Positions 15,822 through 31,805 of a stretch of DNA of 64,000 bases are shown here, piece by piece. The notes under the pieces are model-generated. The model had not been told where the DNA came from. It saw only the letters and a program-made list of their open reading frames with translations, and did not search any database. The position numbers were made by a program, and so were the translations under genes. The stretch's first letter is position 1. Each line of letters opens with the position of its first letter. The stretch comes from Pigmentibacter sp. JX0631 (GTDB taxonomy: Bacteria; Bdellovibrionota_B; Oligoflexia; Silvanigrellales; Silvanigrellaceae). The stretch lies in the NCBI RefSeq assembly GCF_029873255.1, contig NZ_CP123622.1, positions 962,501 to 1,026,500 on the forward strand. The letters run 5' to 3'.

Positions 15822-18800
15822 TTAATTCGCAATATAGTATCCATTAGAAGACATAACAGTACCCGATAGGTTTAATTTTTCACTCGCTAATGAAAAATTA
15901 ATATCTTCAAGTTCCGCATTAGATGTCCTGTCTAAATTAATTGTTAGCTCAGTAAATGAATTGCCAAAATCTTTGGAAACAAACACTTTTTGCGTAGTCA
16001 CAACAAATAGAGAATTTCCAATAACTTTGACAGATTTTATTGCACTTTCAATCAATCTTGAATTTATTTTATTGGCAGTACGATTATATATATGCAGTCC
16101 TTTATTTGTTCCGATAAATAATTTATTTTCAGTAAAATCAATTGCAGAAATTGTTAATCCATCTAATTTTATAGGCTGTTTATCAAAGTTTATTAAATCT
16201 TTTGTAAAATAAATTTCATTATTTATTGTGAAGTAAATATTATTTAAATTTGTAGAAAAATATTCAAAAGAAAAATCGTAATTTTTTACAAAATTTCCAT
16301 TCTTGAATTTAAAAATGCCGCTTCTACCTTTTATGTACAATTCATTATCAAAAATAAAAAACTTCTTTAATGAAGAATCATTATAACTGATTTGTTCTAG
16401 GCGTAAAGTCGATGAATTTTCTTTATAAATAAAATTACTAGAAAGAAAATACATGTTTCCTTGATAAAAAATACCATCAAGGAAATTACTTTGATCGGTT
16501 GAATTAGAAAGCGGAAGAAGTACAGAACTAACAAGACTTAAACTTTTCTTTTTTCTAATTTCATTTTCAGAAATAATATAATAGTAATTATTTCCTTCAA
16601 TTACTTTAATTAATTTTTCATTATTCTTAACAAATTTATTAAAATTTAAATCTTCATTTAGGGACAACAAAAACATGTTTTCATTTTTTATAATATAGGA
16701 ATAATGGAAGAAACCTTCTAAATTATCTATAGCATTATCATTAAATGCACTACTTTTTTTAAATACACCATTTAAACCATTCGTAGAAGCATACAACCCA
16801 TGGCTAGTGCTAAATAAGACATAATTATTATAAAAATAGATATTTTTTAAATTAATATTTACAGGGATATTTAAAGCAATTTTTTTAAATTTTATAGCGA
16901 TATTACTTTCCCAATTTCCGACACCATCCATCTCACTATAATACAGAGATTTCTCAGTCAATAAAAACAATTTTTTATTGATAAATTTAACAGATTGAAT
17001 ATTTTCAACAGAAGAAAAATTGTAATCAGATTGTGAAGCGTAATGGATAACAGCTAATTTTAATGAGTTTTGTGGACTAAAAGTGGCTAATAAAATATTT
17101 TTATTAGAAAAGACTACTAAGTTATTATTCACATTTTCCAAACCCACCATTGAAAAATTAGAAAATTTATTTTGCAAATAAAAATTTAGTTTTTCCCCAT
17201 TTTTAGAACAATATAATCCTCTTGAATTAACATTACTTCTAATTAATAAACAAATACTACTATTTACTTCGGTTAATGCTATAACATTATTTTCGTCAAA
17301 ACTAATTTCATCATTATTTTCAGTAAAAATTGCTACTGGAATTTTTGTAAATTCATCTTTTCCAAAATTCTTCGCCACAAATAGCCCTTTTTCTTGTCCC
17401 GATTTCAAAATATATATTTTATCTTTTGCCTTAAATATTTTAAGTACAGAATTCATTTCAAGTTTTTTTGGATAAAATGAATTTAAATATTTAAAACCCA
17501 TGTTTGTGGCTGCAATAATGTCATCTTGAGTAACTAAAACTCCTAAAAAACTTGATGCCCCCGTAGGATCCTTTTTAAAAAGAGGGGTTACTTCACTACT
17601 TAAACTGAATTTTTTTGTATATATCCCATTTTCTTTTGTACAATTTATCCCATTTTCTTTTGTGTTATTATTAACAAAACACATTGCAGCGATATATAAA
17701 GAGTCTCCAAACAATTTCATGTCATAAATATCATTGTTCTTAAAAGATAGATCCTCAACAAATCCATCTAAAAGAACATTTTCATAATCACTTCCAACGG
17801 CAGTTGATTTTGAGAAAAACAATCCCGAGTTTGTTCCTAAAACAACTCTTCCTTCATATGTGTACAAACTTTTTATTTCGTTTTGTGAAATATTCCTTCC
17901 AACTATTGGAATATCCGTTGCTATTTGAATAAAATTTTGACCGCCATTTTTTGAATAAAAAATATCTTTACCACGTACAGCAAAAATATTATTTTTTTCT
18001 GCAAATATGTCTTGAAAAATTCTAAAATTATATCCATTTATTTTAACAGGAATACTTTGTAAATTAATATTGTTATTATCAATACTAAAAAGGCCATTTT
18101 GCTTTGTGGCCAAATATACTTTTCTACCATTATTAGCTATACTAACAAAATCATCCACAGTTATTATTGAGTTTTTAATATTAAGTTTTTTTTCAATTTT
18201 CTTAAATACAGAAGGATTGTTTAAATCAGCAAAATATACCCCCCCTTTTTTACTTTCCTTATTATGTTTAAATGCTACGACATAAATTTTATCATTATGA
18301 ACCGTAAGTCCTCTAATTTCAATTCCTTTAGGAATCCCATTTACCGCATTAAATTGACCATTTACTCCATTTTTTGATACATACAAAGATTCTTTATCCG
18401 CACTATTCACAGCTACAAAAAGTAAATTTTCGTGTTTAAAAACCCTGAATATTGATAATTCATTAAAATCATTTGAATTAGAGACTGAATTTGAATTATT
18501 GTCTAATAATAATTCTAGATCTTTCTTAAATTCTTTTGTTTCTGCTTCTGCATGTGGATATTTAAATTCTACTCCTAATGAAAAATTTCTTTTCGAAATA
18601 CTCGTGTGAGGTAAAAATAATTTAGCTTGACAAGTTTCATTTACTTGCAATATTTTATTTAAGCAATTTTCATCAGTCATAAATTCATTCAAAAAATTTT
18701 CTATTTTTACAGGTGAAGTTCCATTATTTTTAAGCTCAATAGTCTCTGAATAAAATTGATTAACTTTAAATTTATTTTGTAAATTTGGGGATATTTCTAG

Positions 18801-19367
18801 GGAAAAAACACTACTGTAAAAATTTTTCTCATTTAATTTTTCTTCTATATTGCTGAAAATAATTTCTATATTATGAGAAATTAGCTTCTTAATTTTAAAA
18901 AAATATTGAGTACTATAATTTGTATTTAATGTATTAGTACTTCTAATTAATTGCAATATTTTAGAATCATAGTTATCAATCGGAATATCAATTCCAATTT
19001 CATTCGAAAAAGAAAATTTTTCATTATTCTTAGTATTAATTTCTAAATATATTAAATTTAAATTGCATTTTATGTCATCTTTTTTTAAAAATAATTGATT
19101 TTCTATTCCCTCTGAAAAATTGTTAATTTGCCAAATTTCATCATTTTTCCGACCAAAGCAATTAATATATTTTCCTTTTGCAATAACTTCCGAAATTTCA
19201 TTATTACCAATGGAACTATAATTTTTATTTATACTTATTTTTGGGTAGATTCCTTCTTCTAATAAAATATTTTTCTCTGAATCGGAATTATTACGACAAC
19301 TAGTAGAAATAATTATTGCAAAAAACAGATAAGTTAAGAAACCAAAATATTTCACAATTTTCTCCAT
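15822..19367 (-). CDS. Very large lipoprotein-like beta-propeller protein, 1181 aa
   Basis: The N-terminus is a signal sequence with a lipobox-like IIISTSC, so the protein is probably exported and lipid-anchored at about Cys24. After an all-beta N-terminal region (about 30-290), the rest is made of many loosely similar blade units. Each has a hydrophobic strand followed by phrases such as LYVSKNG, IFYSKNGGQNF, LYYSEMDG, YASTNG and VFVSKDFGNSF, resembling BNR/Ycf48- or sortilin-type propeller repeats. Two or more propellers are likely. Function unknown; surface binding is an inference. Two convergent flagellar gene ends meet its 3' end. A run of seven G (complement of 18239-18245) lies in the coding frame. 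Confidence 0.75.
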   Translation of the reverse strand: MEKIVKYFGFLTYLFFAIIISTSCRNNSDSEKNILLEEGIYPKISINKNYSSIGNNEISEVIAKGKYINCFGRKNDEIWQINNFSEGIENQLFLKKDDIKCNLNLIYLEINTKNNEKFSFSNEIGIDIPIDNYDSKILQLIRSTNTLNTNYSTQYFFKIKKLISHNIEIIFSNIEEKLNEKNFYSSVFSLEISPNLQNKFKVNQFYSETIELKNNGTSPVKIENFLNEFMTDENCLNKILQVNETCQAKLFLPHTSISKRNFSLGVEFKYPHAEAETKEFKKDLELLLDNNSNSVSNSNDFNELSIFRVFKHENLLFVAVNSADKESLYVSKNGVNGQFNAVNGIPKGIEIRGLTVHNDKIYVVAFKHNKESKKGGVYFADLNNPSVFKKIEKKLNIKNSIITVDDFVSIANNGRKVYLATKQNGLFSIDNNNINLQSIPVKINGYNFRIFQDIFAEKNNIFAVRGKDIFYSKNGGQNFIQIATDIPIVGRNISQNEIKSLYTYEGRVVLGTNSGLFFSKSTAVGSDYENVLLDGFVEDLSFKNNDIYDMKLFGDSLYIAAMCFVNNNTKENGINCTKENGIYTKKFSLSSEVTPLFKKDPTGASSFLGVLVTQDDIIAATNMGFKYLNSFYPKKLEMNSVLKIFKAKDKIYILKSGQEKGLFVAKNFGKDEFTKIPVAIFTENNDEISFDENNVIALTEVNSSICLLIRSNVNSRGLYCSKNGEKLNFYLQNKFSNFSMVGLENVNNNLVVFSNKNILLATFSPQNSLKLAVIHYASQSDYNFSSVENIQSVKFINKKLFLLTEKSLYYSEMDGVGNWESNIAIKFKKIALNIPVNINLKNIYFYNNYVLFSTSHGLYASTNGLNGVFKKSSAFNDNAIDNLEGFFHYSYIIKNENMFLLSLNEDLNFNKFVKNNEKLIKVIEGNNYYYIISENEIRKKKSLSLVSSVLLPLSNSTDQSNFLDGIFYQGNMYFLSSNFIYKENSSTLRLEQISYNDSSLKKFFIFDNELYIKGRSGIFKFKNGNFVKNYDFSFEYFSTNLNNIYFTINNEIYFTKDLINFDKQPIKLDGLTISAIDFTENKLFIGTNKGLHIYNRTANKINSRLIESAIKSVKVIGNSLFVVTTQKVFVSKDFGNSFTELTINLDRTSNAELEDINFSLASEKLNLSGTVMSSNGYYIAN

Positions 19368-19636
19368 TTTTAATTTTCTTAAATTTGAATTGCTGAAAAA
19401 TTACTTATCTTTTTTTTTAAGATAAATTTTCATAACTGATTATAATAAAAATGAAATTCTTTCAATCTACAAATTTTTCTTTTTTGTAAAAAATTCTTTT
19501 AATTAGGGAGTGTTCTCCAATATTGAAGAAGATTTGATTTTTGGCATGTTTCCCGCAAAATCTGGAGAAAGCATAACATTTATTGACAAATATAATAATA
19601 TTTGCTAGCATCATCTCTGCTGGGGGTGAAGAAAAT

Positions 19637-20962
19637 ATGTCTGAAAAGTTTCGAGTTATAACAGAGCTAGTAAGTAAAGATGGAATAATAATAGAGCGGA
19701 AAGAAGTATCTTCTTGCGAGTTATCTGAACCTTTAAATATAGAAGAATTAGGATATACCCATGTAGCACAAATAGAAATATTAAAAGATATTACTGAAAA
19801 TAAAATACACCATCAAACAAAATTAATAAGATCTAACACAATATGCCCTTCTTGCGGAAAAACAACTAATAAACATGGTACTTTTACTTCAAATTTTCAT
19901 TCTGTATTTAGTGATCATAAAGTTCAAATTCAAAGAAGAAATTGCAATTGTGGTTGGACAAATAAGTTTACGCTTGAGGGGCTATTTGGGTCTGCATTTC
20001 ACCCTGATCTATTGAAATTGCAGTGTGAATTTGGTTCAGATAATAGTTTTAAGCGAGCAGAAAATCTTTTAAAAGCTCTAAATACAAGACATCGTCCAGT
20101 AAATAATCATGTTCGTATTTCAAAAACAATTGAAAAAATAGGTTCTATAATAGGAGAATTTAAGACAGAAAATCCTGTGCAAATAGAAAAACCTGCAAAT
20201 ATTATGGTTGCCCAGATCGATGGTGGACATATTCAGCCAAAAGACAAAGACTTACGTAGTTATGAAGTTCTTGTAGCAAAATGCTATAATTTAGAAAATC
20301 AGATAGAAAAGGATCAACATCATACTGAACTATTAAAAAGTACTTGTATAGCTTCTGCTTTATCCGATCAAGGAGAGACAATAAAAAAGCAACTTATTTA
20401 TGCCGCTTTATCTGAAGGAATGACTAAAGAAACCACTGTATATGCCTTATCAGATGGAACTAAAAATTGTTGGTTTGCACTTTCTATTTTATCTGGAAAA
20501 TGCTCTCAACTTATAAAAATATTGGACTGGGAACATATTGCACGTAAGTTTAAGCTTGTAGAACAAACCTTAGCAGATGAATTAAAAGATAAATTAGAAA
20601 GTGCAAACAGAAAATTATGGCATGGAAATAGCAAAGATTGCATAGAAAAACTTTTATATATCAGAAATGAATTGGGAGAAATAGAAAATAAGAAGTTAAA
20701 TAATTTAACTGAATACCTTGTTAGGAATGAACATTACCTTATAAATTATGAAGAACAAAGGAATAATAATCTTCCCTATACCAGCAATGTAATTGAATCT
20801 GCTGTGGATACTCTTATAAATGAAAGACAAAAAAAGAATAAAAAAATGTCTTGGACAAGAGAAGGGGCTCATCATGTCCTTCAAATTAGAGCGTCTATTG
20901 CTAGTAAAACATGGGATATTGATTGGAAAGATGCTTTCACAGTTTTAACATCGGCTGTATAA
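19637..20962 (+). CDS. ISKra4-like family transposase, apparently intact
   Basis: The ATG at 19637 is preferred; an in-frame TTG at 19583 would add 18 residues. The 441-residue protein has zinc-binding pairs CPSCGK (near 92) and CNCGW, and an RNase H-like catalytic core: first Asp in AQIDGGHIQ, second in ALSDGTKNCW. The C-terminal SNVIESAVDTLINERQ and KMSWTREGAHHVLQIRAS are very like the ISKra4 hallmark around the catalytic Glu (SAV-x-x-x-x-x-R...MxWxxxGAxxLLQxR). A decayed second copy lies at 31008. No inverted repeats were confirmed; 19368-19570 before it is A/T-rich and apparently non-coding. Family name is by motif memory. Confidence 0.8.
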   Translation: MSEKFRVITELVSKDGIIIERKEVSSCELSEPLNIEELGYTHVAQIEILKDITENKIHHQTKLIRSNTICPSCGKTTNKHGTFTSNFHSVFSDHKVQIQRRNCNCGWTNKFTLEGLFGSAFHPDLLKLQCEFGSDNSFKRAENLLKALNTRHRPVNNHVRISKTIEKIGSIIGEFKTENPVQIEKPANIMVAQIDGGHIQPKDKDLRSYEVLVAKCYNLENQIEKDQHHTELLKSTCIASALSDQGETIKKQLIYAALSEGMTKETTVYALSDGTKNCWFALSILSGKCSQLIKILDWEHIARKFKLVEQTLADELKDKLESANRKLWHGNSKDCIEKLLYIRNELGEIENKKLNNLTEYLVRNEHYLINYEEQRNNNLPYTSNVIESAVDTLINERQKKNKKMSWTREGAHHVLQIRASIASKTWDIDWKDAFTVLTSAV

Positions 20963-21099
20963 ATAATTATCTGTCATTAAATACTATGCTTTCATTCATA
21001 TTGAAACTTTTTTTACTTTGCAAAATTACTAGTTTTAGATATTCTGTTAAGCGTTAAATTTTTTTAATGAATTTGATTTCTTAGTTTAAAGGATGTCTA

Positions 21100-22215
21100 A
21101 TGAATCCGAGCTACATTTTGCGCACAAGTTGTCCTGTTTGTCAGGGTAAAGAAATAAATTTGCATTATTCAAGCCATTTTCCCATACTACCAATTTGCAC
21201 AGAAAAAAAAGTTGAATTTGATATCAACATCCCCTTTGAAATAGGAATATGCAATGAATGCGGTCTCATTCAGTTAACGAAACTAGTGGAACCTTCTCTA
21301 CTCTATGACAATTTCCACTCTGAAGGTCTTGGTGAAACATGGAATAATCATTATGAGGCATTTTCAAATATAATTAAAAAACTACCAGTTAGGGTAGCTT
21401 TAGAAGTAGGAGCTGGTCAGGGTAAATTAACAGAAAAATTAAAAGAAAAGTTGCATTTGACTGTAGTTGATCCTTTATATAGAGGTAATAGAAATAATAT
21501 TGAAGTTTTTAGCACTATGTTTGATTCGAATATAAGCGACACTATGATGGGTAAATTTGAAATGGTTTACTCTTCCCATACTTTAGAACATTTTTATGAA
21601 TTCAATGAATATTTTCAAAATTCTTTTAAAGTTTTGCAAAGTAATGGATTTTTAGTTACCGCTGTTCCAAATTTAGAATTTTCATTTAACACAGGTTATA
21701 CAAATACTTTAAATACCGAACATACTTCTATTTTAAGTCTATCGCATCTTATAAATCTACATCAAAAAAACGGATTTATAATTAAAAGTATAGAATATTA
21801 CAAAGATCATAGTATTTATATTACTTCTCAAAAATCAGAAAAAATAAACACAAAGATAAATTCAGTAGAATATTCTCAGGTTTTACTTGAAAATTTTATT
21901 CTTCGAATAAAAAACAAAATTGATATTATTAGAAATAGAGCTAATGATAAAAAAATTAATTATCTTTTTGGTGCGAGTAACTTTGCTCAAACATTATTTG
22001 CATTTGGTTTACAAGAAAATTATTTTTCTAATTTATTAGATAATAGTGATATTAAAGCAAAAAAAAGACTATATGGAACTAATTTAGTATCTCTTCATCC
22101 AAAAGATATTGACCTTAATTCTGCTCGAATTTTTATTAATGCAGGGACATACTCAAAAGAAATCAATATTCAGCTTAAAAAATTAAACCAAAATATTGAG
22201 ACAATAATACTATGA
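21100..22215 (+). CDS. SAM-dependent methyltransferase with N-terminal zinc-binding domain
   Basis: 371 residues in the order found in sugar C-methyltransferases. A zinc-binding module carries CPVC (about 10-13) and CNECG (about 52-56). A class I methyltransferase core follows, with motif I ALEVGAGQGKLTEKL (about 103-117) and SSHTLEHFYEF. A C-terminal domain begins near YLFGASNFAQTLFAFG, like the C-methyltransferase C-terminal domain. Such enzymes methylate NDP-keto-sugars, so a branched or methylated sugar is suggested. AAAGGATG precedes the ATG. It opens the cassette operon and overlaps the next gene by four bases. The exact acceptor cannot be read from sequence. Confidence 0.85.
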   Translation: MNPSYILRTSCPVCQGKEINLHYSSHFPILPICTEKKVEFDINIPFEIGICNECGLIQLTKLVEPSLLYDNFHSEGLGETWNNHYEAFSNIIKKLPVRVALEVGAGQGKLTEKLKEKLHLTVVDPLYRGNRNNIEVFSTMFDSNISDTMMGKFEMVYSSHTLEHFYEFNEYFQNSFKVLQSNGFLVTAVPNLEFSFNTGYTNTLNTEHTSILSLSHLINLHQKNGFIIKSIEYYKDHSIYITSQKSEKINTKINSVEYSQVLLENFILRIKNKIDIIRNRANDKKINYLFGASNFAQTLFAFGLQENYFSNLLDNSDIKAKKRLYGTNLVSLHPKDIDLNSARIFINAGTYSKEINIQLKKLNQNIETIIL

Positions 22216-22925
22216 ATTTATCTATCGTAATTCCTTGTTTTAATGAAGAAAAGGCAATTCCTATTTTACTTGAAAAATATTATAATATTTCACTACTTAT
22301 ACCTCTGCAATTAATTCTTGTAGATAACGGCTCTACCGACAATACGAAAGGAATTATTGAAACTAAAAAATTAGATCCTAAGTTTAATTTTGTTACTTTT
22401 TTAAGAATTGAAAAGAATGTGGGTTACGGTCATGGAATTATGTTTGGAATAAAACATACTAAAACAGACTTTATTGGATTTACTCATTCAGATTTACAAT
22501 GCGATCCTGATGATATATTAAAAGCATACAATAGAATTTTAGAAATTGATCCAAATGATACTAAAGTTTTAATTAAAGGAAGAAGAATAGAAAGGCGGAA
22601 AGAGGAAAAATGGATTTCAGCAAAACTTGACTCTATTGCTTCTTTTTTGTTTTTTAGAAAATTTCATGATATTAATGGACAACCAAAAGTTTTCCATCGA
22701 TCACTTTTAGATTCATATATTTACTATCCAGTTGATATAACATTTGATGTATTTGTAACTTATAAAACAAAGCAACTAGGTTATCAAATAATTGATTTTC
22801 CTGTTTACTTTCATAAAAGACAATTTGGAAAATCAAGTTGGAATACTTCTGTTTTAAAACGTTGGAAAACCATTCTATCATTTTTTAAAACAATACTTTT
22901 TTTAGTATTTAAAATATATAAATAG
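22212..22925 (+). CDS. Family 2 glycosyltransferase (dolichyl-phosphate mannose synthase-like)
   Basis: The 237-residue GT-A enzyme begins LSIVIPCFNEEKAIP and continues with LVDNGSTDNT (nucleotide-binding Asp) and FTHSDLQCDPDDI (the metal-binding acidic motif). The gap GYGHGIMFGIKHT matches the G-x-x-x-A-x-x-x-G region of DPM/GtrB-like members. The C-terminus is hydrophobic (about 218-236) and could associate with the membrane. It probably transfers a sugar to a lipid or a growing glycan on the cytoplasmic face. Overlap (ATGA) with the methyltransferase gene shows translational coupling. Donor and acceptor are unknown. Confidence 0.85.
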   Translation: MNLSIVIPCFNEEKAIPILLEKYYNISLLIPLQLILVDNGSTDNTKGIIETKKLDPKFNFVTFLRIEKNVGYGHGIMFGIKHTKTDFIGFTHSDLQCDPDDILKAYNRILEIDPNDTKVLIKGRRIERRKEEKWISAKLDSIASFLFFRKFHDINGQPKVFHRSLLDSYIYYPVDITFDVFVTYKTKQLGYQIIDFPVYFHKRQFGKSSWNTSVLKRWKTILSFFKTILFLVFKIYK

Positions 22926-22937
22926 GATCTAAAAATT

Positions 22938-23624
22938 ATGATTTTTCAAAAAAACAAAATTAAAACAGTTGTTTTCGACCTTGACGATACATTAATTCCT
23001 TCTTCACAATTTTATCATGATTCATATCTTCTATGTGGAATTGACAGCCAAGGTGAAAATTTTAAAACAGCTAAAGAACTTGTTAAAAAAAGTTTAGGTA
23101 ATAATCACACAAGCTCTCATAATAGAATTTTATACTTTAAAAAATACTTAGAACTAGAAAATAATTTCACTTCTAAAAATCTCATCTCATTAGTCACAAA
23201 GTATAATTTCTACTTAAAATTACTAATAAAAGATTTTATTGAAAAATCTAAAAGAAATCTCCTCTTTAGACAATTAAAAGAAAAATATACATTAGCAATT
23301 ATTACTAATGAAACAACATTAAGTCAAATTATAAAATTAGAGGAAATTGATTCAAATGGGGAATTTTTTAGCAATATAATAACATCTGAAGAAATTGGGG
23401 TTGAGAAACCATCAGATGAAATTTATCAATATTTTTTTAAAACTTGTCAGACTCTTCCAGAAAACTGCCTATTTGTTGGAGACAACTTCACAACTGATCT
23501 CCAAAAACCAATTTTACTTGGCGCAAGTACAATACTAACTCAAGAATTTAATAATGAAAACGATGACTATCAAATTAATTGTACCAAAATAAAATCTCTA
23601 GAAGAATTAAAAGAGGTCTTATAA
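22938..23624 (+). CDS. HAD-family hydrolase (probable phosphatase)
   Basis: All four HAD motifs are visible in the 228 residues: VVFDLDDTLIP (motif I, nucleophile Asp and acid/base Asp near 15-17), IITNET (motif II), the Lys of EKPSDEIY (motif III) and FVGDNFTTD (motif IV). The alpha-helical cap between motifs I and II is of the C1 type. In this cassette a dephosphorylation step next to an aldolase and a nucleotidyltransferase suggests action on a sugar-phosphate intermediate, which is an inference. It lies 12 bases after the GT2 gene and 2 bases before the aldolase gene. Confidence 0.85.
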   Translation: MIFQKNKIKTVVFDLDDTLIPSSQFYHDSYLLCGIDSQGENFKTAKELVKKSLGNNHTSSHNRILYFKKYLELENNFTSKNLISLVTKYNFYLKLLIKDFIEKSKRNLLFRQLKEKYTLAIITNETTLSQIIKLEEIDSNGEFFSNIITSEEIGVEKPSDEIYQYFFKTCQTLPENCLFVGDNFTTDLQKPILLGASTILTQEFNNENDDYQINCTKIKSLEELKEVL

Positions 23625-23626
23625 AC

Positions 23627-24577
23627 ATGAGTATAAATGAACTTATTACAGCTTCAAATCTTATTGGAAATAAAATACCATTGTGGAATCAAGGAAAAGG
23701 CGGTAACTGTTCTTTTAAAAACAACTTAATAGATAATATTATATGGATAAAAGCATCTGGATACAGATTAGATAAAGTATCTTTAGAATCAGGACTCGTT
23801 TCAGTTGATATAGACAAAGCATCTAAAAAACTATTAGAAATATTTCATCAATTTTCAAATAGAGACATTAATTACGATGATGAGAAAGATTATGAGAACA
23901 TTTTATTAAATTCTGCTTATCATACAAATTCTAATTTAAAACCTTCAATGGAAACAGGACTTCATATTGTCTTAAAAAAAGATTTTGTTTTTCATTTCCA
24001 CTCAACTGCAGCATTAATAATGTATGAATTTAAAGATAAAACTAATGAATTCTATAAAAAATATCCTCAGTATAAAGTATCTTTTATAAAATTTATACAA
24101 CCTGGTCTTGAGTTAGCTTATGAAGTATGGAAAAAAAATGAAAGTGATATTTTTATTTTACAAAATCATGGTGTTATTTTACAATCAAACAACATAAATA
24201 TATTAAAATCATGGGAAATGATGGAAAAAGAATTTTTTCAATTTATAAAACGCCCTGATGTGAATAAATTATACACGTCTAATGCTAATTTTTCCTTAAA
24301 AGGCTCATCAGCCCCTCTTAAATTTTACTTCCCCGATTCATTAGTTTTTGAAAATAATTTAATTTCAATTTTAAAATTTATAAAGACAAAAAATGGTCAA
24401 AATTATTATGAAATAGATCCTCTCAAAAAAGAATTAGATAAAAATGCTTTTGAGCTTTGGGAAGCCACGTCTTTAATTTATAATTATTTCCCACAAACGT
24501 TAGAAATACCCAAAGAAGCGGGAAAAAGAACAATCGATCTTCCTTTTGAAAAACATAGAGTTTCACAAACACAATAA
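23627..24577 (+). CDS. Class II aldolase/adducin-family protein
   Basis: I start at the ATG 23627, with AGAGGTC upstream; the longer frame back to 23579 only overlaps the HAD gene. The 316 residues show the family landmarks: GKGGNCSFK near 24-32 (phosphate loop), MSINELITASNLIG helix, the zinc ligand pair in HFHST (about 123-126) and the third ligand in LQNHGVIL. Enzymes of this type split or join fuculose- or rhamnulose-1-phosphate, or epimerise ribulose phosphate, via a zinc enediolate. The C-terminus (about 220-316) is not typical of fuculose aldolase. The neighbours suggest it makes a phosphorylated precursor for an NDP-sugar. Confidence 0.8.
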   Translation: MSINELITASNLIGNKIPLWNQGKGGNCSFKNNLIDNIIWIKASGYRLDKVSLESGLVSVDIDKASKKLLEIFHQFSNRDINYDDEKDYENILLNSAYHTNSNLKPSMETGLHIVLKKDFVFHFHSTAALIMYEFKDKTNEFYKKYPQYKVSFIKFIQPGLELAYEVWKKNESDIFILQNHGVILQSNNINILKSWEMMEKEFFQFIKRPDVNKLYTSNANFSLKGSSAPLKFYFPDSLVFENNLISILKFIKTKNGQNYYEIDPLKKELDKNAFELWEATSLIYNYFPQTLEIPKEAGKRTIDLPFEKHRVSQTQ

Positions 24578-24592
24578 TGAGGATTATAAAAC

Positions 24593-26152
24593 ATGTCCAA
24601 AATAAAAATTCATTTGTTGATTCCCATGTCTGGCGAAGGAATTCGCTTTCAAAATTATGGTTATACTATTCCTAAACCTCTCGTTCCTATTTCTGGTGAA
24701 CCAATGATATCAAGAGTACTTGATAATTTCCCAGAGCATTGGGAATCACATTTTGTCATATCAGAGAATCATGCAAAAACACAATTACCCAGTATACTAA
24801 AAGATCTAAGAAAGAATTGTAACATATCGATAATTCCCCCCCATAAATTAGGTCCTTCATTTGCTGCACTTGAAGCCTTAAAACATATCCCCGTCAATGA
24901 ACCTGTTTTTGTCAGTTACTGTGATTATGGAATGATTTGGGATAGTAGCCAATTTGAAAGATTTATTGTCGATTCTTCTTGTGAGATCGCCCTTGTTTCT
25001 TATCGAGGATTCCATGCTCATTATTTAACAAGCCAAACTTATGCCTATTCAAAAATGAGTGGTGAGTTGGTAGATTGTGTGAAAGAAAAAGGATCTTTTA
25101 CAGATAATAGAGAGAATGAATTTGCATCTAGTGGTGGATATTATTTTCGTTCAGCTGGTCTATTAAAAGAATGTATTGATTTTCAAGTATCTAAAAATCT
25201 CAGCTATAATGGAGAGTTTTACACGAGTTTAACAGTTCAAGCATACTTGCAACAGAATCCATTAGCTCATGTAAGAGTATTTGAAATACCGGGTTTTTTT
25301 CAATGGGGAACCCCAGAGGATATTGTAACTTTTGAATATTGGGAAAAAACTTTTCGAGCATACAATCGAAATCAAAGACAACCAATTAAATACACTGAGC
25401 AAATAATCATGCCTATGGCAGGAAAAGGCTCTCGATTCTTAGAAAGTTCAAAACGTCCTAAACCATTTATAGATATAGATGGAATTCCAATGTATGAGAA
25501 AGCTTTGCAATCATTACCTCAAGCAAAAAAAACGAATATCATTATGCTTGATGAACATAAATCATATATTACTCATTCAAACTATAATTTCACTTCCCTA
25601 TCCGAAACACCTAACGGTCAAGCATTAAGCACAGAATTCGGTTTCCTTAACGTTGACATGAACAAAGATGTTATTGTTTCCTCCTGTGATCATGCAATTG
25701 TCTTGGATAGTCAAGTATGGCAAGAATTTCAAAAGATAAAAGATTGTGACGCGGCTATTTTTACAGTGAAAAGATATCCAGGAGTTGCTAGAACACCCCA
25801 TTCATATTCATATGTTATCATTGATAATCTAGCACATCCAAACAACTTCCCTCTCGTAAAAGGAATATCATTAAAAGCTCCTACTACAGAAAATCCTTTA
25901 GAAGAAGAGCTTCTTGTTGGAACCTTTTGGTTTAAAAAATGTTCTTTATTAAAACAAGGGATTGAAATGTTAAAAACTTCTCATTTTGATCTGAATAAAG
26001 AATTGTATCTTGACAGTATTTTTAATGTACTTATTCAAAATAATTATAAAGTATTATCAATACCATTAGATGGATATATTTGCTGGGGAGATCCCCAGGC
26101 ACTAAAAGAATCGCAATATTGGTATGAAATATTCACATGCAAAAAGGTATAG
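24593..26152 (+). CDS. Tandem-domain sugar nucleotidyltransferase
   Basis: Two nucleotidyltransferase-like (GT-A fold) domains are fused in 519 residues. Domain 1 (about 1-255) has MSGEGIRF and IPKPLVPISGEPM; domain 2 (about 264-519) has MAGKGSRF and RPKPFIDIDGIPM. Both keep the G-x-G-x-R-F nucleotide loop and the following PKP Lys, and each has a metal-site-like acidic patch (VSYCDYGMIWD, SSCDHAIVLD). Each also ends in a WGxPxx motif. This suggests internal duplication with both halves possibly active. The family forms NDP-sugars from sugar-1-phosphates and NTP. Base or sugar specificity cannot be told. A run of seven C at 24836-24842 lies in frame. Confidence 0.8.
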   Translation: MSKIKIHLLIPMSGEGIRFQNYGYTIPKPLVPISGEPMISRVLDNFPEHWESHFVISENHAKTQLPSILKDLRKNCNISIIPPHKLGPSFAALEALKHIPVNEPVFVSYCDYGMIWDSSQFERFIVDSSCEIALVSYRGFHAHYLTSQTYAYSKMSGELVDCVKEKGSFTDNRENEFASSGGYYFRSAGLLKECIDFQVSKNLSYNGEFYTSLTVQAYLQQNPLAHVRVFEIPGFFQWGTPEDIVTFEYWEKTFRAYNRNQRQPIKYTEQIIMPMAGKGSRFLESSKRPKPFIDIDGIPMYEKALQSLPQAKKTNIIMLDEHKSYITHSNYNFTSLSETPNGQALSTEFGFLNVDMNKDVIVSSCDHAIVLDSQVWQEFQKIKDCDAAIFTVKRYPGVARTPHSYSYVIIDNLAHPNNFPLVKGISLKAPTTENPLEEELLVGTFWFKKCSLLKQGIEMLKTSHFDLNKELYLDSIFNVLIQNNYKVLSIPLDGYICWGDPQALKESQYWYEIFTCKKV

Positions 26153-26163
26153 TAATATAAAAT

Positions 26164-28194
26164 ATGAATAAAATAAATTTTATAAAAATAAATTCTATAT
26201 CCAAAGTATTCTTAATTGGACTATTGCTTCGTTTATTTTGTCTATCTTATGATAATACTCTTTATTTAAGTAAATATTTCATTCCTTTTATCGATTGGAG
26301 TATCCTTCATCCTTTCGAAAATCCTTGGAAAGAGTTTCCACCTGTTTATTTTCCATACGGTTCATTTATTTATCTTTCATTGTTATTATCAAAAGCATTT
26401 GGTTATCTCATTTTTGGAGCCAGTTCATTAGGAGATACTGTCCTTAGCAATATTTTTATTAAAGCACCTCTCTTTTTATTTGACATATTACTATATAAAG
26501 TAATTGAAAAATTTACACATTCCAACAAGAATATCAATTATTTTTATTGGTTAAACCCTATTGTGATTTATGTTACTTATATTCTAGGATCAATTGATAT
26601 TGTTTCTATGTCTTTGTGTTTTTTGTCGTTACTTTTATTAGTTAGAAAACAGTATATTGCTTCTAGTATAGTTTTATCACTAGCTTGTTTGAGTAAATTT
26701 CATATATTTATTATTTATCCATTTATGCTCGCTTACATATATAGGTCTAATTTTTTATCAACTTCAATATTAAAAATAACAAAATCTATTCTAGTTTTTT
26801 TAATAATACTCTTTATTGGTCTTATTCCTATTTTACAAAGCGGACATTTATTATACGTATCCTTTGCTTCACCCCAAGCACTAAGTATTTTTTCACTTGC
26901 CTACAAAATAGATGATTCCTCATACTTATTTTATGGATTACTGTTCTTGTCAATTATTTTATATCGGCTTGTTTTTTCAGCTAATATTAATGAAAGAGGA
27001 TTGATTTTTGGAAGCAGTATTATTTTTTCTCTTTTAATCATTATAACACCGCCAGTAGCTAATTGGTATATTTGGTTAGTTCCTTTTTATTGCATATTCT
27101 TCATAATGTATAGCAATTCTCCAAAAAAACTATACTATTTATTTATCGCAACTTATACAGTAAAGTTCATAATTTTAAGTCATTTTAAAAATACCCCTAT
27201 TATTATGAATTCCTTTTTAATAACAGCTCTTCAGTCAATAGTAATTTTAATTGCAATTTACATGTGGATTCTTGTAATTATACATGACTGCCCCATAGGA
27301 AAAAAAATAAAACCAATTGTAATTGGGATATCAGGAAATTCAGCCGCCGGTAAAAATACTTTAAGTTTTGTCATTTCCAAACTATTTGAACAAAAAGCTC
27401 TCACAGTAATCGATGGAGATGACTATCATAAATGGGAAAGAGGAAATGAAAGATGGGAAAAAATAACTCATTTAGATCCCAAAGCTAATAACCTCCATTA
27501 TTTATTTACCCACCTTACAAATATTTTTAGAGGAAGATCTATTTATAAAACTTTTTACGATCATAGTAATGGTAAATTTACACCATTTAAAGAAGTAAGA
27601 TCTTCACCAGCAATTGTACTTCAAGGACTTCATATTTTTTATCAAGCAAAACTTCGCAGATATATTGACATTAAAATTTTTCTTGATCCAAGTGATGAAA
27701 TTATTTTATATTGGAAAATAAATAGAGATGTCAATGAAAGAAACTATAAACTCAATGACGTATTGAAATCCATTGAAAGAAGATATGAAGACACTAAAAA
27801 ATATATTACTCCTCAGAAGCAATATGCTGATTGGATAATAAATTATTTCCCATTGCATGAAATATCTAGAGAAGAAATTTTAGCTGGTAAAAAACCAATA
27901 CTAGCAGTAAAACATATTCTATATAATGACTTTCCAAGTGATGAACTTTCGCATGCTCTTTTAAGCTCTTGTAATGTTGAAATTAAAGTTAATTCCTTTC
28001 AAAATGACATTAATAAAATTGAAATAACCATTCTTCAAGAGCCTAGTGCACATGATATTTACAAAGCATCTATTGTACTTTTTGATAATTTGCCATCGTT
28101 ACTTCGTTTAAGTCACCCTCCAAAATGGAGTTCTGGTTTTCAAGGTATCAATCAACTCATTTTTTTAATCCTAATCAATAAGAGTTATATGTAA
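26164..28194 (+). CDS. Membrane glycosyltransferase (GT-C-like) fused to a uridine-kinase-like domain
   Basis: Residues 1-375 form a multi-pass membrane domain (about ten segments) with a loop rich in aromatic residues (WSILHPFENPWKEFPPVYF) after TM1, as in GT-C mannosyltransferases using lipid-phosphate donors. Residues about 384-590 are a phosphoribulokinase/uridine kinase-type P-loop domain: GISGNSAAGKNT (about 388-399), then VIDGDDYHKWER, and IVLQGLHIFY. The residue after the Walker A Lys is Asn rather than Ser/Thr. A third region (about 600-676) is unrecognised. The fusion suggests coupled phosphorylation and transfer. The end overlaps the next gene start. The GT-C call rests on topology. 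Confidence 0.7.
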   Translation: MNKINFIKINSISKVFLIGLLLRLFCLSYDNTLYLSKYFIPFIDWSILHPFENPWKEFPPVYFPYGSFIYLSLLLSKAFGYLIFGASSLGDTVLSNIFIKAPLFLFDILLYKVIEKFTHSNKNINYFYWLNPIVIYVTYILGSIDIVSMSLCFLSLLLLVRKQYIASSIVLSLACLSKFHIFIIYPFMLAYIYRSNFLSTSILKITKSILVFLIILFIGLIPILQSGHLLYVSFASPQALSIFSLAYKIDDSSYLFYGLLFLSIILYRLVFSANINERGLIFGSSIIFSLLIIITPPVANWYIWLVPFYCIFFIMYSNSPKKLYYLFIATYTVKFIILSHFKNTPIIMNSFLITALQSIVILIAIYMWILVIIHDCPIGKKIKPIVIGISGNSAAGKNTLSFVISKLFEQKALTVIDGDDYHKWERGNERWEKITHLDPKANNLHYLFTHLTNIFRGRSIYKTFYDHSNGKFTPFKEVRSSPAIVLQGLHIFYQAKLRRYIDIKIFLDPSDEIILYWKINRDVNERNYKLNDVLKSIERRYEDTKKYITPQKQYADWIINYFPLHEISREEILAGKKPILAVKHILYNDFPSDELSHALLSSCNVEIKVNSFQNDINKIEITILQEPSAHDIYKASIVLFDNLPSLLRLSHPPKWSSGFQGINQLIFLILINKSYM

Positions 28195-28841
28195 TGCAAC
28201 TACCAACTTTCGTTAGACATAGAGTTAATAGTATAAAAGATTTAAGTAATCATGCGCCAAACTGGGGAGCTGAAATTGATATTCGATCAAATGTTAATAT
28301 CCCAGGGGAGCTTCATCTTTCCCATGATCCATGGACATTAGGAGATAATTTTGACTTATGGCTCAATGCTTTTGTAAAATTAAATATTTCTGGGCCACTT
28401 ATTCTCAATACTAAAGAAGATGGATTAGAATCAATTCTAATAGAAAAACTTCAAGAAAGAAAAATAACTAATTATTTTTTTCTTGATACTACTCCTCCAA
28501 CTCTTATAAAATATGCTTTTGGTCTGAATATTAGAAATTTTGCTATTAGAGTATCTCAGTTTGAGAATGTCGAAAATGCTTTATTATTTAAAGATCACGT
28601 AGATTGGGTTTGGTTAGATTGTTTTGCTGGTGTCCCTGTAGACATAAACATATTAAAGCCAATCTTACTGCATTTTAAAGTGTGTATTGTTTCACCTGAA
28701 CTCCAATCATGTCAATTAGAAGATAATTATTTAAAATTTCTTCCTCTAGTTCAAAAAGCTAAGTTAATTTGCACAAAGTCTCCTAATTTTTGGTTAAATA
28801 AAATGTTAGACAATAATAAATCTAGAGAAGTCCAGTATTAA
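28194..28841 (+). CDS. GDPD/PI-PLC-like phosphodiesterase-fold protein
   Basis: The 215-residue protein starts with FVRHRVN (about 6-12), then GAEIDIRS (about 26-33) and HLSHDPW (about 42-48), which follow the glycerophosphodiesterase pattern H-R, E-x-D and HD. LILNTKEDG (about 71-79) fits the next strand, and the remaining alternating strands and helices fit a TIM barrel. At 215 residues it is shorter than most GDPDs and has no signal peptide. It is the last rightward gene of the cassette, overlapping the fusion gene by one base. It may hydrolyse a phosphodiester or have been recruited to another reaction on a sugar-phosphate; this part is inference. Confidence 0.65.
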   Translation: MQLPTFVRHRVNSIKDLSNHAPNWGAEIDIRSNVNIPGELHLSHDPWTLGDNFDLWLNAFVKLNISGPLILNTKEDGLESILIEKLQERKITNYFFLDTTPPTLIKYAFGLNIRNFAIRVSQFENVENALLFKDHVDWVWLDCFAGVPVDINILKPILLHFKVCIVSPELQSCQLEDNYLKFLPLVQKAKLICTKSPNFWLNKMLDNNKSREVQY

Positions 28842-28860
28842 TTATCAATTTTCAAAAAAT

Positions 28861-30783
28861 TTAGAAACGTTTCATTAAAACTAATGGCAAAGAATAAATA
28901 TTATTAATAATTTTCCATTCCTTCCAACCATTTTTAATCAGTTCAGGTATTAAACTTGTACTATTTGGATGAATAACTAACACTTTAATATTTGAATTAT
29001 TTTGTATACAATGAATTAAATCTTGAGAAGGCTTACAATATAAAACTTGATCATAAATCAATCTAGAACTTAAATATTGTTTTATAGTATAATCATTAAT
29101 GATAACTGAAAATACAATATAACTTGGATCTATAACAAACTCATTCCCTGCCAATCCATTGGCTTTTAATTCCTTAAAAACAAGATCATAATTGACTGGA
29201 AATTGAGAAATAACTCCATTCTTATAAATAGGCAAGTTATTTTTAATAGAATCTCCTAAATTAATTTTTACAAATTTTATTTGATAAATATTATACAAAT
29301 TATAACAAATTATAAATATTAAAACAAATGCTGTATATTTATGAAAATATTTATAAATTAAAGACACTATGTAAACAAAGCCTAAAACAAAAAATGGAGC
29401 TACATACTCTGCTTGATATCTCCCCCCCCCCCAGAGAGTACAATTTATAGAGTAAAATAAGCAATATCCAAGAATAAATAACATTAGAGCTAATAAATGA
29501 TTTAATATATTTTTTCTTGCAGTTGGAATAAATGAAAACAATGCAATTACCACCCCACCAATTCCAATTGCATTAGAGATAGATAAATATGGTATTTCAG
29601 TTCTAAAAGATAATATAATTCGTTCTAATACATTATAGTGTAAAGGAATAAAAAAACACTCACCGGGCGAATAAGAAGCAGGAGAAGATGAATATAACAA
29701 TCTAATTATATAAGGAATAGCAGACAGAATAGGTAATAAAAAAATTAATAAATTTTTATAAGTATAATTATATTCTCTTCTTTTAATAATTATGAGTATA
29801 AAAATTGGTATAACTGCTAAAATAGCTGTATGACGAATTAAAGTAAAAATTGAGATAATAGAAACTATTCTTATTATATTTTCAATTGTAAGAGAGCTAC
29901 TATATTTATAGATAAATAGTAATGACAAACTCCAAGCACAACCAGACCAAATAGAGAACTCAAGTATAGTAGATGAATACCATAGAACAGGAATAGTAAC
30001 AACACATAAACTTGATAGAAAAGATAAAAAAAATGAAAAATTATTTCTTATAATTTTAAAGACTGTAAAGCCTAAAAGTAATAAACATAAAATTTGAGGA
30101 AGGAAAAATTGATAATTATTCACCAAACTAATAGAACTAAAAAAAGACGGAAGCAGAGTTCTTAGAGGTGGATGAAATTCAGTAAAACTATAACCACCAA
30201 AATACCTAAAAGAAAACAAATAAAGAAAAATAAAAATACAATTAAAAAAAACATAAATATGCCATGTTTTTTTTAATAATTTATTATGAATAATAAACAA
30301 AACATAAAAAAACATAATTAAACCAATATTTACAAAAAAAAGAGGCCACTTAAAAAAAAGACTATCTATATTTAATTGTGAATATATATCAAACTTAGAT
30401 AAATGATATAATATATTTTTAGTTATTTCTATCGAATAAAATTTTGAAAAATAAGCATGATATATTTGATCTCCAGTTAATGAAAAATCAAACAATTCAT
30501 TATACGAAAAAAGAATTAAAAAAAACAAAATACCTAAGATAACGATAATATCTATTTTTCTAAGAACAATTACATCTTTATATTTTTCATTAGTCAGTGA
30601 TAAATATAATAATAAATTCATTATTGACAACAAAATAAAAGGCTCAAAAAAAATAATTATCTTATTTGTACTAGGTATAATAAGTAAAATATTAAAGCCG
30701 CGTTGTAATGTGTAACTAAATATAAAACATAATAATATAATTTTAAACCAGTTTAAATTTATATAAATTAGATTTTCTTTCAT
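28861..30783 (-). CDS. Membrane glycosyltransferase-like protein (GT-C/GT39-like) with in-frame G11 tract
   Basis: A 640-residue polytopic inner-membrane protein with about 12-14 hydrophobic segments and a C-terminal soluble part (about 520-640). TM1 is followed by loops with acidic residues (FDFSLTGDQIYHAYF, FTEFHPPLRT), the layout of GT-C enzymes. It is the only leftward gene in the IS-bracketed cassette. Codons 451-454 (Trp-Gly-Gly-Gly) are encoded by a T followed by eleven G (complement of 29422-29432). Loss or gain of one G would frameshift the last 186 residues. As sequenced the frame is open. The donor is probably a polyprenyl-phosphate sugar; function is inferred from topology only. 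Confidence 0.75.
   Translation of the reverse strand: MKENLIYINLNWFKIILLCFIFSYTLQRGFNILLIIPSTNKIIIFFEPFILLSIMNLLLYLSLTNEKYKDVIVLRKIDIIVILGILFFLILFSYNELFDFSLTGDQIYHAYFSKFYSIEITKNILYHLSKFDIYSQLNIDSLFFKWPLFFVNIGLIMFFYVLFIIHNKLLKKTWHIYVFFNCIFIFLYLFSFRYFGGYSFTEFHPPLRTLLPSFFSSISLVNNYQFFLPQILCLLLLGFTVFKIIRNNFSFFLSFLSSLCVVTIPVLWYSSTILEFSIWSGCAWSLSLLFIYKYSSSLTIENIIRIVSIISIFTLIRHTAILAVIPIFILIIIKRREYNYTYKNLLIFLLPILSAIPYIIRLLYSSSPASYSPGECFFIPLHYNVLERIILSFRTEIPYLSISNAIGIGGVVIALFSFIPTARKNILNHLLALMLFILGYCLFYSINCTLWGGGRYQAEYVAPFFVLGFVYIVSLIYKYFHKYTAFVLIFIICYNLYNIYQIKFVKINLGDSIKNNLPIYKNGVISQFPVNYDLVFKELKANGLAGNEFVIDPSYIVFSVIINDYTIKQYLSSRLIYDQVLYCKPSQDLIHCIQNNSNIKVLVIHPNSTSLIPELIKNGWKEWKIINNIYSLPLVLMKRF
29422..29432 (-). 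repeat. Poly-G tract of 11 inside a coding sequence (probable contingency locus)
   Basis: Eleven consecutive C on the plus strand (G on the coding strand) fall inside a membrane glycosyltransferase gene. In sequence of roughly 30% G+C such a run is very unlikely by chance. Long G tracts in surface-glycan genes are the classical substrate for slipped-strand phase variation, as in Campylobacter, Helicobacter and Neisseria. The length here keeps the frame open (ON). Confidence 0.75.
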
Positions 30784-31007
30784 AAAATTTGTTTGAAAAT
30801 AAGTTTTGATAATTAACCCCTTTCATGTTAAGTGATTTATCAAGATTATCTTTAGCCTCATCAGATTGACTAAAAATATGTTACTTTGTTTTGAAGAGTT
30901 TCAGCTTTCAAAGGAAAGTCCTCAAAAGCTTTATATAAACAGTAACTTATTTAAGCTCCAAAAAAATACTATATATTACTTTTGTTAAAGAGGAAGAATA
31001 AATGAGA

Positions 31008-31758
31008 GCATAACATTTATTGACAAATATAATAATATTTGCTATCAGCATCTCTGCTGGGACTGAAGATGAAATAATAATAGAGCGGAAAGAAGTATCT
31101 TCTTGCGAGTTATCTGAACCTTTAAATATAGAAGAATTAGGATATACCCATGTAGCACAAATAGAAATATTAAAAGATATTACTGAAAATAAAATACACC
31201 ATCAAACAAAATTAATAAGATCTAACACAATATGCCCTTCTTGCGGAAAAACAACTAATAAACATGGTACTTTTACTTCAAATTTTCATTCTGTATTTAG
31301 TGATCATAAAGTTCAAATTCAAAGAAGAAATTGCAATTGTGGTTGGACAAATAAGTTTACGCTTGAGGGGCTATTTGGGTCTGCATTTCACCCTGATCTA
31401 TTGAAATTGCAGTGTGAATTTGGTTCAGATAATAGTTTTAAGCGAGCAGAAAATCTTTTAAAAGCTCTAAATACAAGACATCGTCCAGTAAATAATCATG
31501 TTCGTATTTCAAAAACAATTGAAAAAATAGGTTCTATAATAGGAGAATTTAAGACAGAAAATCCTGTGCAAACAGAAAATTATGGCATGGAAATAGCAAA
31601 GATTGCAAAGAAAAACTTTTATATATCAGAAATGAATTGGGAGAAATAGAAAATAAGAAGTTAAATAATTTAACTGAATACCTTGTTAGGAATGAACATT
31701 ACCTTATAAATTATGAAGAACAAAGGAATAATAATCTTCCCTATACCAGCAATGTAAT
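31008..31758 (+). pseudogene. Decayed ISKra4-like transposase copy
   Basis: This stretch is almost identical to the left copy starting at 19571 but has three defects. First, a net loss of 48 bases near the 5' end removes the ATG of the intact copy. Second, a 424-base deletion joins the two GTGCAAA repeats found at 20177 and 20601 of the left copy (junction at 31566-31572), shifting the frame. Third, similarity stops at about 31758, where the left copy continues to the catalytic Glu region. An N-terminal open frame of about 209 codons survives (zinc-finger part) but no catalytic core. The near-identity of the rest suggests recent decay. 30784-31007 before it holds no gene I can support. Confidence 0.85.
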
Positions 31759-31775
31759 ATTAGAGAATTACAACT

Positions 31776-31805
31776 AACCAATATAATACATTGATTATAT
31801 TGGTT
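31776..31805. terminator. Strong 11-bp hairpin next to the IS remnant
   Basis: AACCAATATAA (31776-31786) and TTATATTGGTT (31795-31805) are perfect complements around an eight-base loop, followed by TTAAAATAAATT. It could terminate transcription coming from the IS remnant or serve as a binding site. The T-run is short, so factor-independent termination is not certain. Confidence 0.45.

Follow-up and report, generated by a model that had tools for sequence, protein, structure and literature searches.

The window analysed here is a 64,000 nt stretch of the Pigmentibacter sp. JX0631 chromosome (contig NZ_CP123622.1, positions 962,501 to 1,026,500), in which eight genes lie between two insertion sequence (IS) copies at positions 21100–30783, seven on the forward strand and one on the reverse strand. 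These begin with a methyltransferase (Methyltransf_23; 21100–22215, +) and continue with a GT2 glycosyltransferase of the polyprenyl-phosphate sugar transferase type (22212–22925, +), which matches the Pfam Glycos_transf_2 model and, below its cut-off, a polyprenyl-phosphate transferase model. A HAD family phosphatase (22938–23624, +), a class II aldolase family protein (23579–24577, +) and a double nucleotidyltransferase with two MobA-like domains (24593–26152, +) follow, leading to a gene that specifies a fusion of a GT-C membrane glycosyltransferase-like domain with a phosphoribulokinase (PRK)-like domain (26164–28194, +). The last forward-strand gene encodes a GDPD-like phosphodiesterase of a family without a Pfam match (28194–28841, +), and the single reverse-strand gene a polytopic GT-C-like protein (28861–30783, −) with a weak PMT_2 match and, on a simple count, 13 predicted membrane spans. 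The HAD protein additionally resembles ribulose-1,5-bisphosphate 5-phosphatase, though weakly (73 bits, cut-off 330), which suits PRK-type chemistry without proving it. Foreign composition was considered as a sign of recent import and set aside, as the codon usage and GC3 of the cassette matched those of its neighbours (Mann-Whitney p 0.64 and 0.37, respectively; eight cassette genes against native genes of > 550 bp); thus, composition does not point to a donor that was foreign or very recent.

Both IS copies belong to the ISKra4 family and share the same orientation. Copy 1 (19567–20993, +) is apparently intact, with two terminal repeats present and matching ends: as judged by eye, it reads GAAAGCATA..ATTTA.TGACA from 19567, and the reverse complement ends at 20993. 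Similar ends were found in relatives of the IS from Acaryochloris. The transposase ORF (19583–20962, +) matched the NCBIfam ISKra4 model at 205 bits, a borderline assignment that exactly equals the cut-off of 205, and by eye the ATG at 19637 is a likelier start than 19583. Copy 2 (31004–31758, +) is decayed, having lost 48 bp at one place, 424 bp between two near-identical GTGCAAAYAGAAAA repeats of 14 bp at another, and also its 3′ (outer, right) end. Ungapped blocks of 514 bp (two mismatches, one near each end) and 193 bp (one mismatch) are nevertheless shared by the two copies, as is a third block of 66 bp at the left end with five mismatches; the two long blocks combined differ at only three positions in 707 bp. 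The first-pass annotation had described near-identical IS copies in direct orientation around eight glycan genes, one intact-looking and the other degenerate, and all of this was borne out. It had also placed an ISKra4-like block at 19571–31758, for which the family and the right edge hold, with the left edge moved to 19567. Given three mismatches in 707 bp, although copy 2 is dead and the nearest relative (genome G011) differs from the window by 16–18 %, we consider the bracketing of the cassette both real and recent.

Had the element been scattered at random through the genome, its position around the cassette could have been a coincidence. DNA searches (40 of 206 candidates scored) and protein searches (nine of nine candidates scored) agreed, however, in finding just two copies in the 3.65 Mb genome, which are those at the cassette edges; two copies placed at random would lie within 11.4 kb of each other with a probability of ∼0.6 %. 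Beyond this genome, the transposase was without a match in 12 of the 13 other family genomes, with a weak 25 % match in the remaining one, and no match was found in one further genome of the order. A search of plasmids likewise returned no near relative, the best match being a 41 % identical protein from Acaryochloris. Target duplications, proposed earlier as a check, were not found at the ends tried of either copy, the outer end of copy 2 being lost. As none was visible by eye in two Acaryochloris relatives of the IS either (the closest multi-copy relatives found), this absence says little.

Copy 1 directly abuts a 66-bp end of an IS5-like element (19501–19566) sharing 88 % identity with a decayed copy at another place in the genome, from which the family name was assigned by eye (L005, 1500–2356). 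We considered a matching right-hand end for this remnant, and a genome search with the element returned the left end alone in the window. The fuller copy lies at G000:C1:2253047; its reading frame is interrupted, and it is adjoined on one side by what appears by eye to be a LanC-type cyclase-like gene (L005, 2362–3066) and on the other by the end of an RND efflux pump gene; a 290-bp piece of the same element lies 7 kb away at 2260104. Outside the cassette, the left-hand neighbour is a lipoprotein-like gene on the reverse strand (15822–19367, 1181 aa), which reads leftward and away from the cassette, whilst the right-hand neighbour is on the forward strand beyond the last, reverse-strand cassette gene. 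This arrangement of strands means that the outer genes share no transcript with the cassette, as had been claimed. A promoter and terminator scan gave counts similar to those from shuffled sequence (100 against 82.4, sd 8.2; 4 against 3.4) and was not used. The flagellar genes flgI and flgJ, as read from their translations, end ∼3.7 kb to the left of the block, and their nearness to the cassette is probably incidental. By comparison with these conserved genes the adjacent lipoprotein-like protein is fast-changing, with identities of 69 % in G011, 28 % in G010 and, along part of the protein only, ∼21 % in G013 and G009.

These four genomes are all the relatives read that carry both flanks of the cassette, and in none of them is the cassette, or the ISKra4 element, present at the site. 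In G011, which is 82–84 % identical to the window at the nucleotide level, both flanks are kept and enclose ∼122 bp of unalignable spacer, as opposed to 12.3 kb in the window; alignment of the flanks delimits the block without counterpart as 19482–31781. The same interval in G010 holds a three-gene RND efflux operon (L051, 12941–18348) beside that genome's own lipoprotein gene, and in G013 and G009 the stretch from flgJ to the right-hand gene is filled by other genes, among them, in G013, a chemoreceptor (Pfam). The spot is therefore variable within the genus. The comparison suggested by the first-pass annotation thus found conserved flanks in G011 with the cassette absent from the site in all four genomes, and in none of the four the same gene order lacking the IS copies, which had been named as one outcome that would speak against it. 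With an empty site in G011 and varied cargo in the other relatives, it is simpler to assume that the window lineage gained the block. This gain has good support, and acquisition here rather than loss elsewhere is the most likely history of the cassette.

The role of the IS pair in that gain is a separate matter. In three of the four relatives, in which no ISKra4 transposase was found, the interval holds other genes, so exchange at this spot does not need the element. It is accordingly conceivable, at somewhat less than even strength, that the IS took no part in the gain. The cassette would then have come in differently, for instance when flanking DNA of a close relative recombined homologously with the chromosome, and the IS would have reached both edges later by local transposition or duplication. 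Turnover of the spot without this IS, the native composition of the cassette, the lack of a target duplication, the presence of a second, IS5-like, remnant at the left edge, and the near-identity of the two copies, which makes them younger than the species split, all suit such a sequence of events. It would, however, require two separate insertions in the same orientation, one at each edge, of an element for which the searches gave no further copy in the genome.

The conserved cargo is the most interesting part of the locus and more worth following than its bracketing. Six of the genes, encoding the double nucleotidyltransferase (NTP), the GT2 enzyme, the GDPD-like protein, the GT-C/PRK fusion, the HAD phosphatase and the class II aldolase (ALD), form a core that recurs across many phyla. 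A pattern search of one genome per species gave at least 586 matches; among the matches listed, 439 code for proteins related to the fusion, of which the best 80 were kept; these came from many phyla and one archaeon. Together with three family contigs and three plasmids they make up 86 loci, in which we labelled the fusion 80 times, NTP 73, HAD 72, ALD 69, GT2 69 and GDPD-like 68 times. These counts are biased by the many loci that end at contig ends and by an ORF filter that missed an annotated fusion gene in L074, and they include three contigs twice (L057/L080, L058/L103 and L059/L090); a hand count without duplicates gave, out of 83, fusion 77, NTP 71, HAD 69, ALD 67, GT2 68 and GDPD-like 66. 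The methyltransferase was tried as a core member and rejected, as it occurred in none of the 86 loci. The window transposase was likewise absent from all 86, such that related modules exist elsewhere without the ISKra4 element. Among the 80 loci with the fusion, a simple hydrophobicity count placed another large polytopic protein nearby in 55 and a small one, of GtrA size, in 19. Within the phylum of the window, the fusion was found in eight of 58 genomes, representing four of 30 genera. No description of the six-gene core was found in titles, the opening lines of abstracts or a full-text search covering largely non-subscription journals.

In a tree of 77 fusion sequences, from which the three duplicate contigs and rows of < 600 aa were left out, the window protein falls in a group of nine (support 100) comprising eight Bdellovibrionota, itself included, and one sequence labelled Myxococcota; its closest relatives are 39 % identical to it. 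Related modules also occur in two genomes of the same genus, G007 (L058) and G012 (L059), and in G003 of the same family. Taken with the well-supported grouping among Bdellovibrionota, these might suggest that the genus had the cassette ancestrally and that the other species lost it by deletion. We regard this as distinctly improbable: the fusion proteins of the three same-genus genomes lie in three different clades at 28–30 % identity, those of G007 and G012 mainly among beta/gamma- and alphaproteobacteria, and hence do not represent one inherited locus, and the cassette is missing at this site from all four relatives that have both flanks. The pattern instead points to separate acquisitions, with the caveat, which applies equally to the ancestral reading, that the G007 and G012 copies are on short contigs of 9.7 and 6.2 kb that could be misbinned.

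An independent instance of the same core between direct IS copies was found on plasmids of Escherichia coli S1-CAM-01-A (typed IncR) and ES3, two of 5426 genomes; it is known from annotated records, and no paper on it was found. As in the window, a nucleotidyltransferase, GT2, GDPD-like protein, GT-C/PRK fusion, HAD and class II aldolase are accompanied by a large protein at the end, and two direct copies of one IS surround them. Unlike the window, the IS is IS26 rather than ISKra4, the location is a plasmid rather than the chromosome, the gene order differs, GtrA is present (Pfam) and the methyltransferase absent; the fusion protein is 27 % identical to that of the window. The two IS26 copies of ES3 are identical over 821 bp, and in S1-CAM-01-A the left copy is one base short. 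Thus, modules of this kind do get bracketed by IS, and by elements unrelated to one another.

Drawing on these comparisons, we read the locus as a module for surface-glycan modification that was acquired at a variable intergenic spot, with an IS pair marking a recent IS-linked event, a proposal of route and function to which we assign evenly balanced confidence. An IS-linked gain is favoured by the empty site in G011 together with the location of both IS copies at the cassette edges and their absence, in our searches, from the rest of the genome. The module would have arrived bracketed by ISKra4 copies, through composite transposition or recombination between IS copies; copy 2 would then have decayed by repeat-mediated deletion of 424 bp and loss of its outer end, leaving the unit frozen in place. 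The arrangement resembles that of composite and pseudo-compound transposons in that cargo missing from the nearest relative is enclosed by a directly repeated IS; in contrast to those, copy 2 is dead, its outer end is gone and no target duplication is seen. Both sides may, in the past, have had usable outer ends. The missing duplication, the native composition, the 39 % identity of the closest fusion relatives and the variability of the spot without the IS all count against the proposal, and whether the pair carried the cassette is about an even bet. The earlier suggestion of IS-driven capture or exchange of a whole module therefore stands in part: the empty site and the IS26 case speak for it, whilst the absent duplication, the lost outer end, native codon usage, related modules without ISKra4 elsewhere and other cargo in three of the four relatives speak against it.

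Structure predictions were made for the fusion and the GDPD-like protein using 41 and 44 sequences, respectively. For the fusion (mean pLDDT 91.8), the N-terminal part matched Candida GPI mannosyltransferase I (Z 27.9 over 343 residues, rmsd 3.9, 14 % identity), ALG3 (Z 26.7, 331 residues, rmsd 3.5) and ALG6 (Z 25.6, 349 residues, rmsd 3.4), all of which use polyprenyl-linked sugars, and the C-terminal part matched cyanobacterial PRK (Z 29.7, 285 residues, rmsd 2.6, 27 % identity). The folds of a PIG-M type GT-C enzyme and of a PRK thus match the two halves which, unlike in those enzymes, are joined in one chain. In disagreement with an active GT-C domain is the observation that the first-loop acid is not conserved, being D or E in just 20 of the 41 sequences. 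The GDPD-like protein of the window was modelled with a mean pLDDT of 96.5 and has a GDPD fold; none of the 44 sequences of its family matched Pfam and a sequence search of the PDB gave no match, such that it was placed by fold search alone. Its residues E27, D29 and H44 are conserved in all 44. Active-site residues are conserved in the aldolase, in the Walker A motif of the kinase and in the GDPD-like protein.

Taken together, the module probably resembles gtr serotype-conversion operons in producing a polyprenyl-linked sugar for transfer to a surface glycan; we infer this chemistry from its gene content. In such a pathway the aldolase, the kinase domain and the HAD phosphatase would shape a short ketose or pentose phosphate, which the double nucleotidyltransferase may activate as an unusual sugar; the GT2 enzyme would load the activated sugar on a polyprenyl phosphate carrier, and on the outer side of the membrane the GT-C enzymes would join it to the surface glycan, in the manner of gtr serotype conversion. 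A phosphodiester along the way might be cleaved or edited by the GDPD-like enzyme. The gtr operons of Shigella and Salmonella are described as horizontally gained and as keeping gtrA and gtrB constant next to a gtr(type) gene that varies (PMC3259042, PMC3688519). The module shares with them a GT2 enzyme, which may use a polyprenyl carrier like GtrB, and a putative polytopic transferase and, at some loci, a small protein (of GtrA size in the 19 of 80 loci above, drawn from the best 80 of 439 relatives, and confirmed as GtrA by Pfam in E. coli). It differs in carrying its own sugar-making enzymes and the GT-C/kinase fusion, and the window cassette differs further in having no GtrA-like gene among its eight. 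The term 'serotype-like' used for the cassette in the first-pass annotation is a putative label that fits this gene content.

A broader proposal, which we offer tentatively and hold to be doubtful as a whole, is that the core is a widespread, undescribed mobile surface-sugar module, marked by the GT-C/PRK fusion and the GDPD-like enzyme outside Pfam, which would make a new polyprenyl-linked sugar by pentulose-phosphate-type chemistry and be packaged repeatedly between direct copies of an IS, namely ISKra4 in the window and IS26 in E. coli, so that bacteria, and at least one archaeon, would share a serotype switch able to transpose. Recognition of a cell by phages, hosts and immune systems depends on its surface sugars; if the core is one module travelling between IS pairs, it would represent a general route of surface change, currently hidden by annotation under 'uridine kinase' and 'hypothetical protein'. 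The fusion of a membrane glycosyltransferase to a sugar kinase, which keeps the same partners from Bacteroidota to Patescibacteria, is in addition a target for enzymology. Within the IS26-bracketed stretch of ES3 (L163, 2838–15129), a broken gene for an AIDA-repeat protein adjoins the sugar module, and this protein is a possible target of glycosylation.
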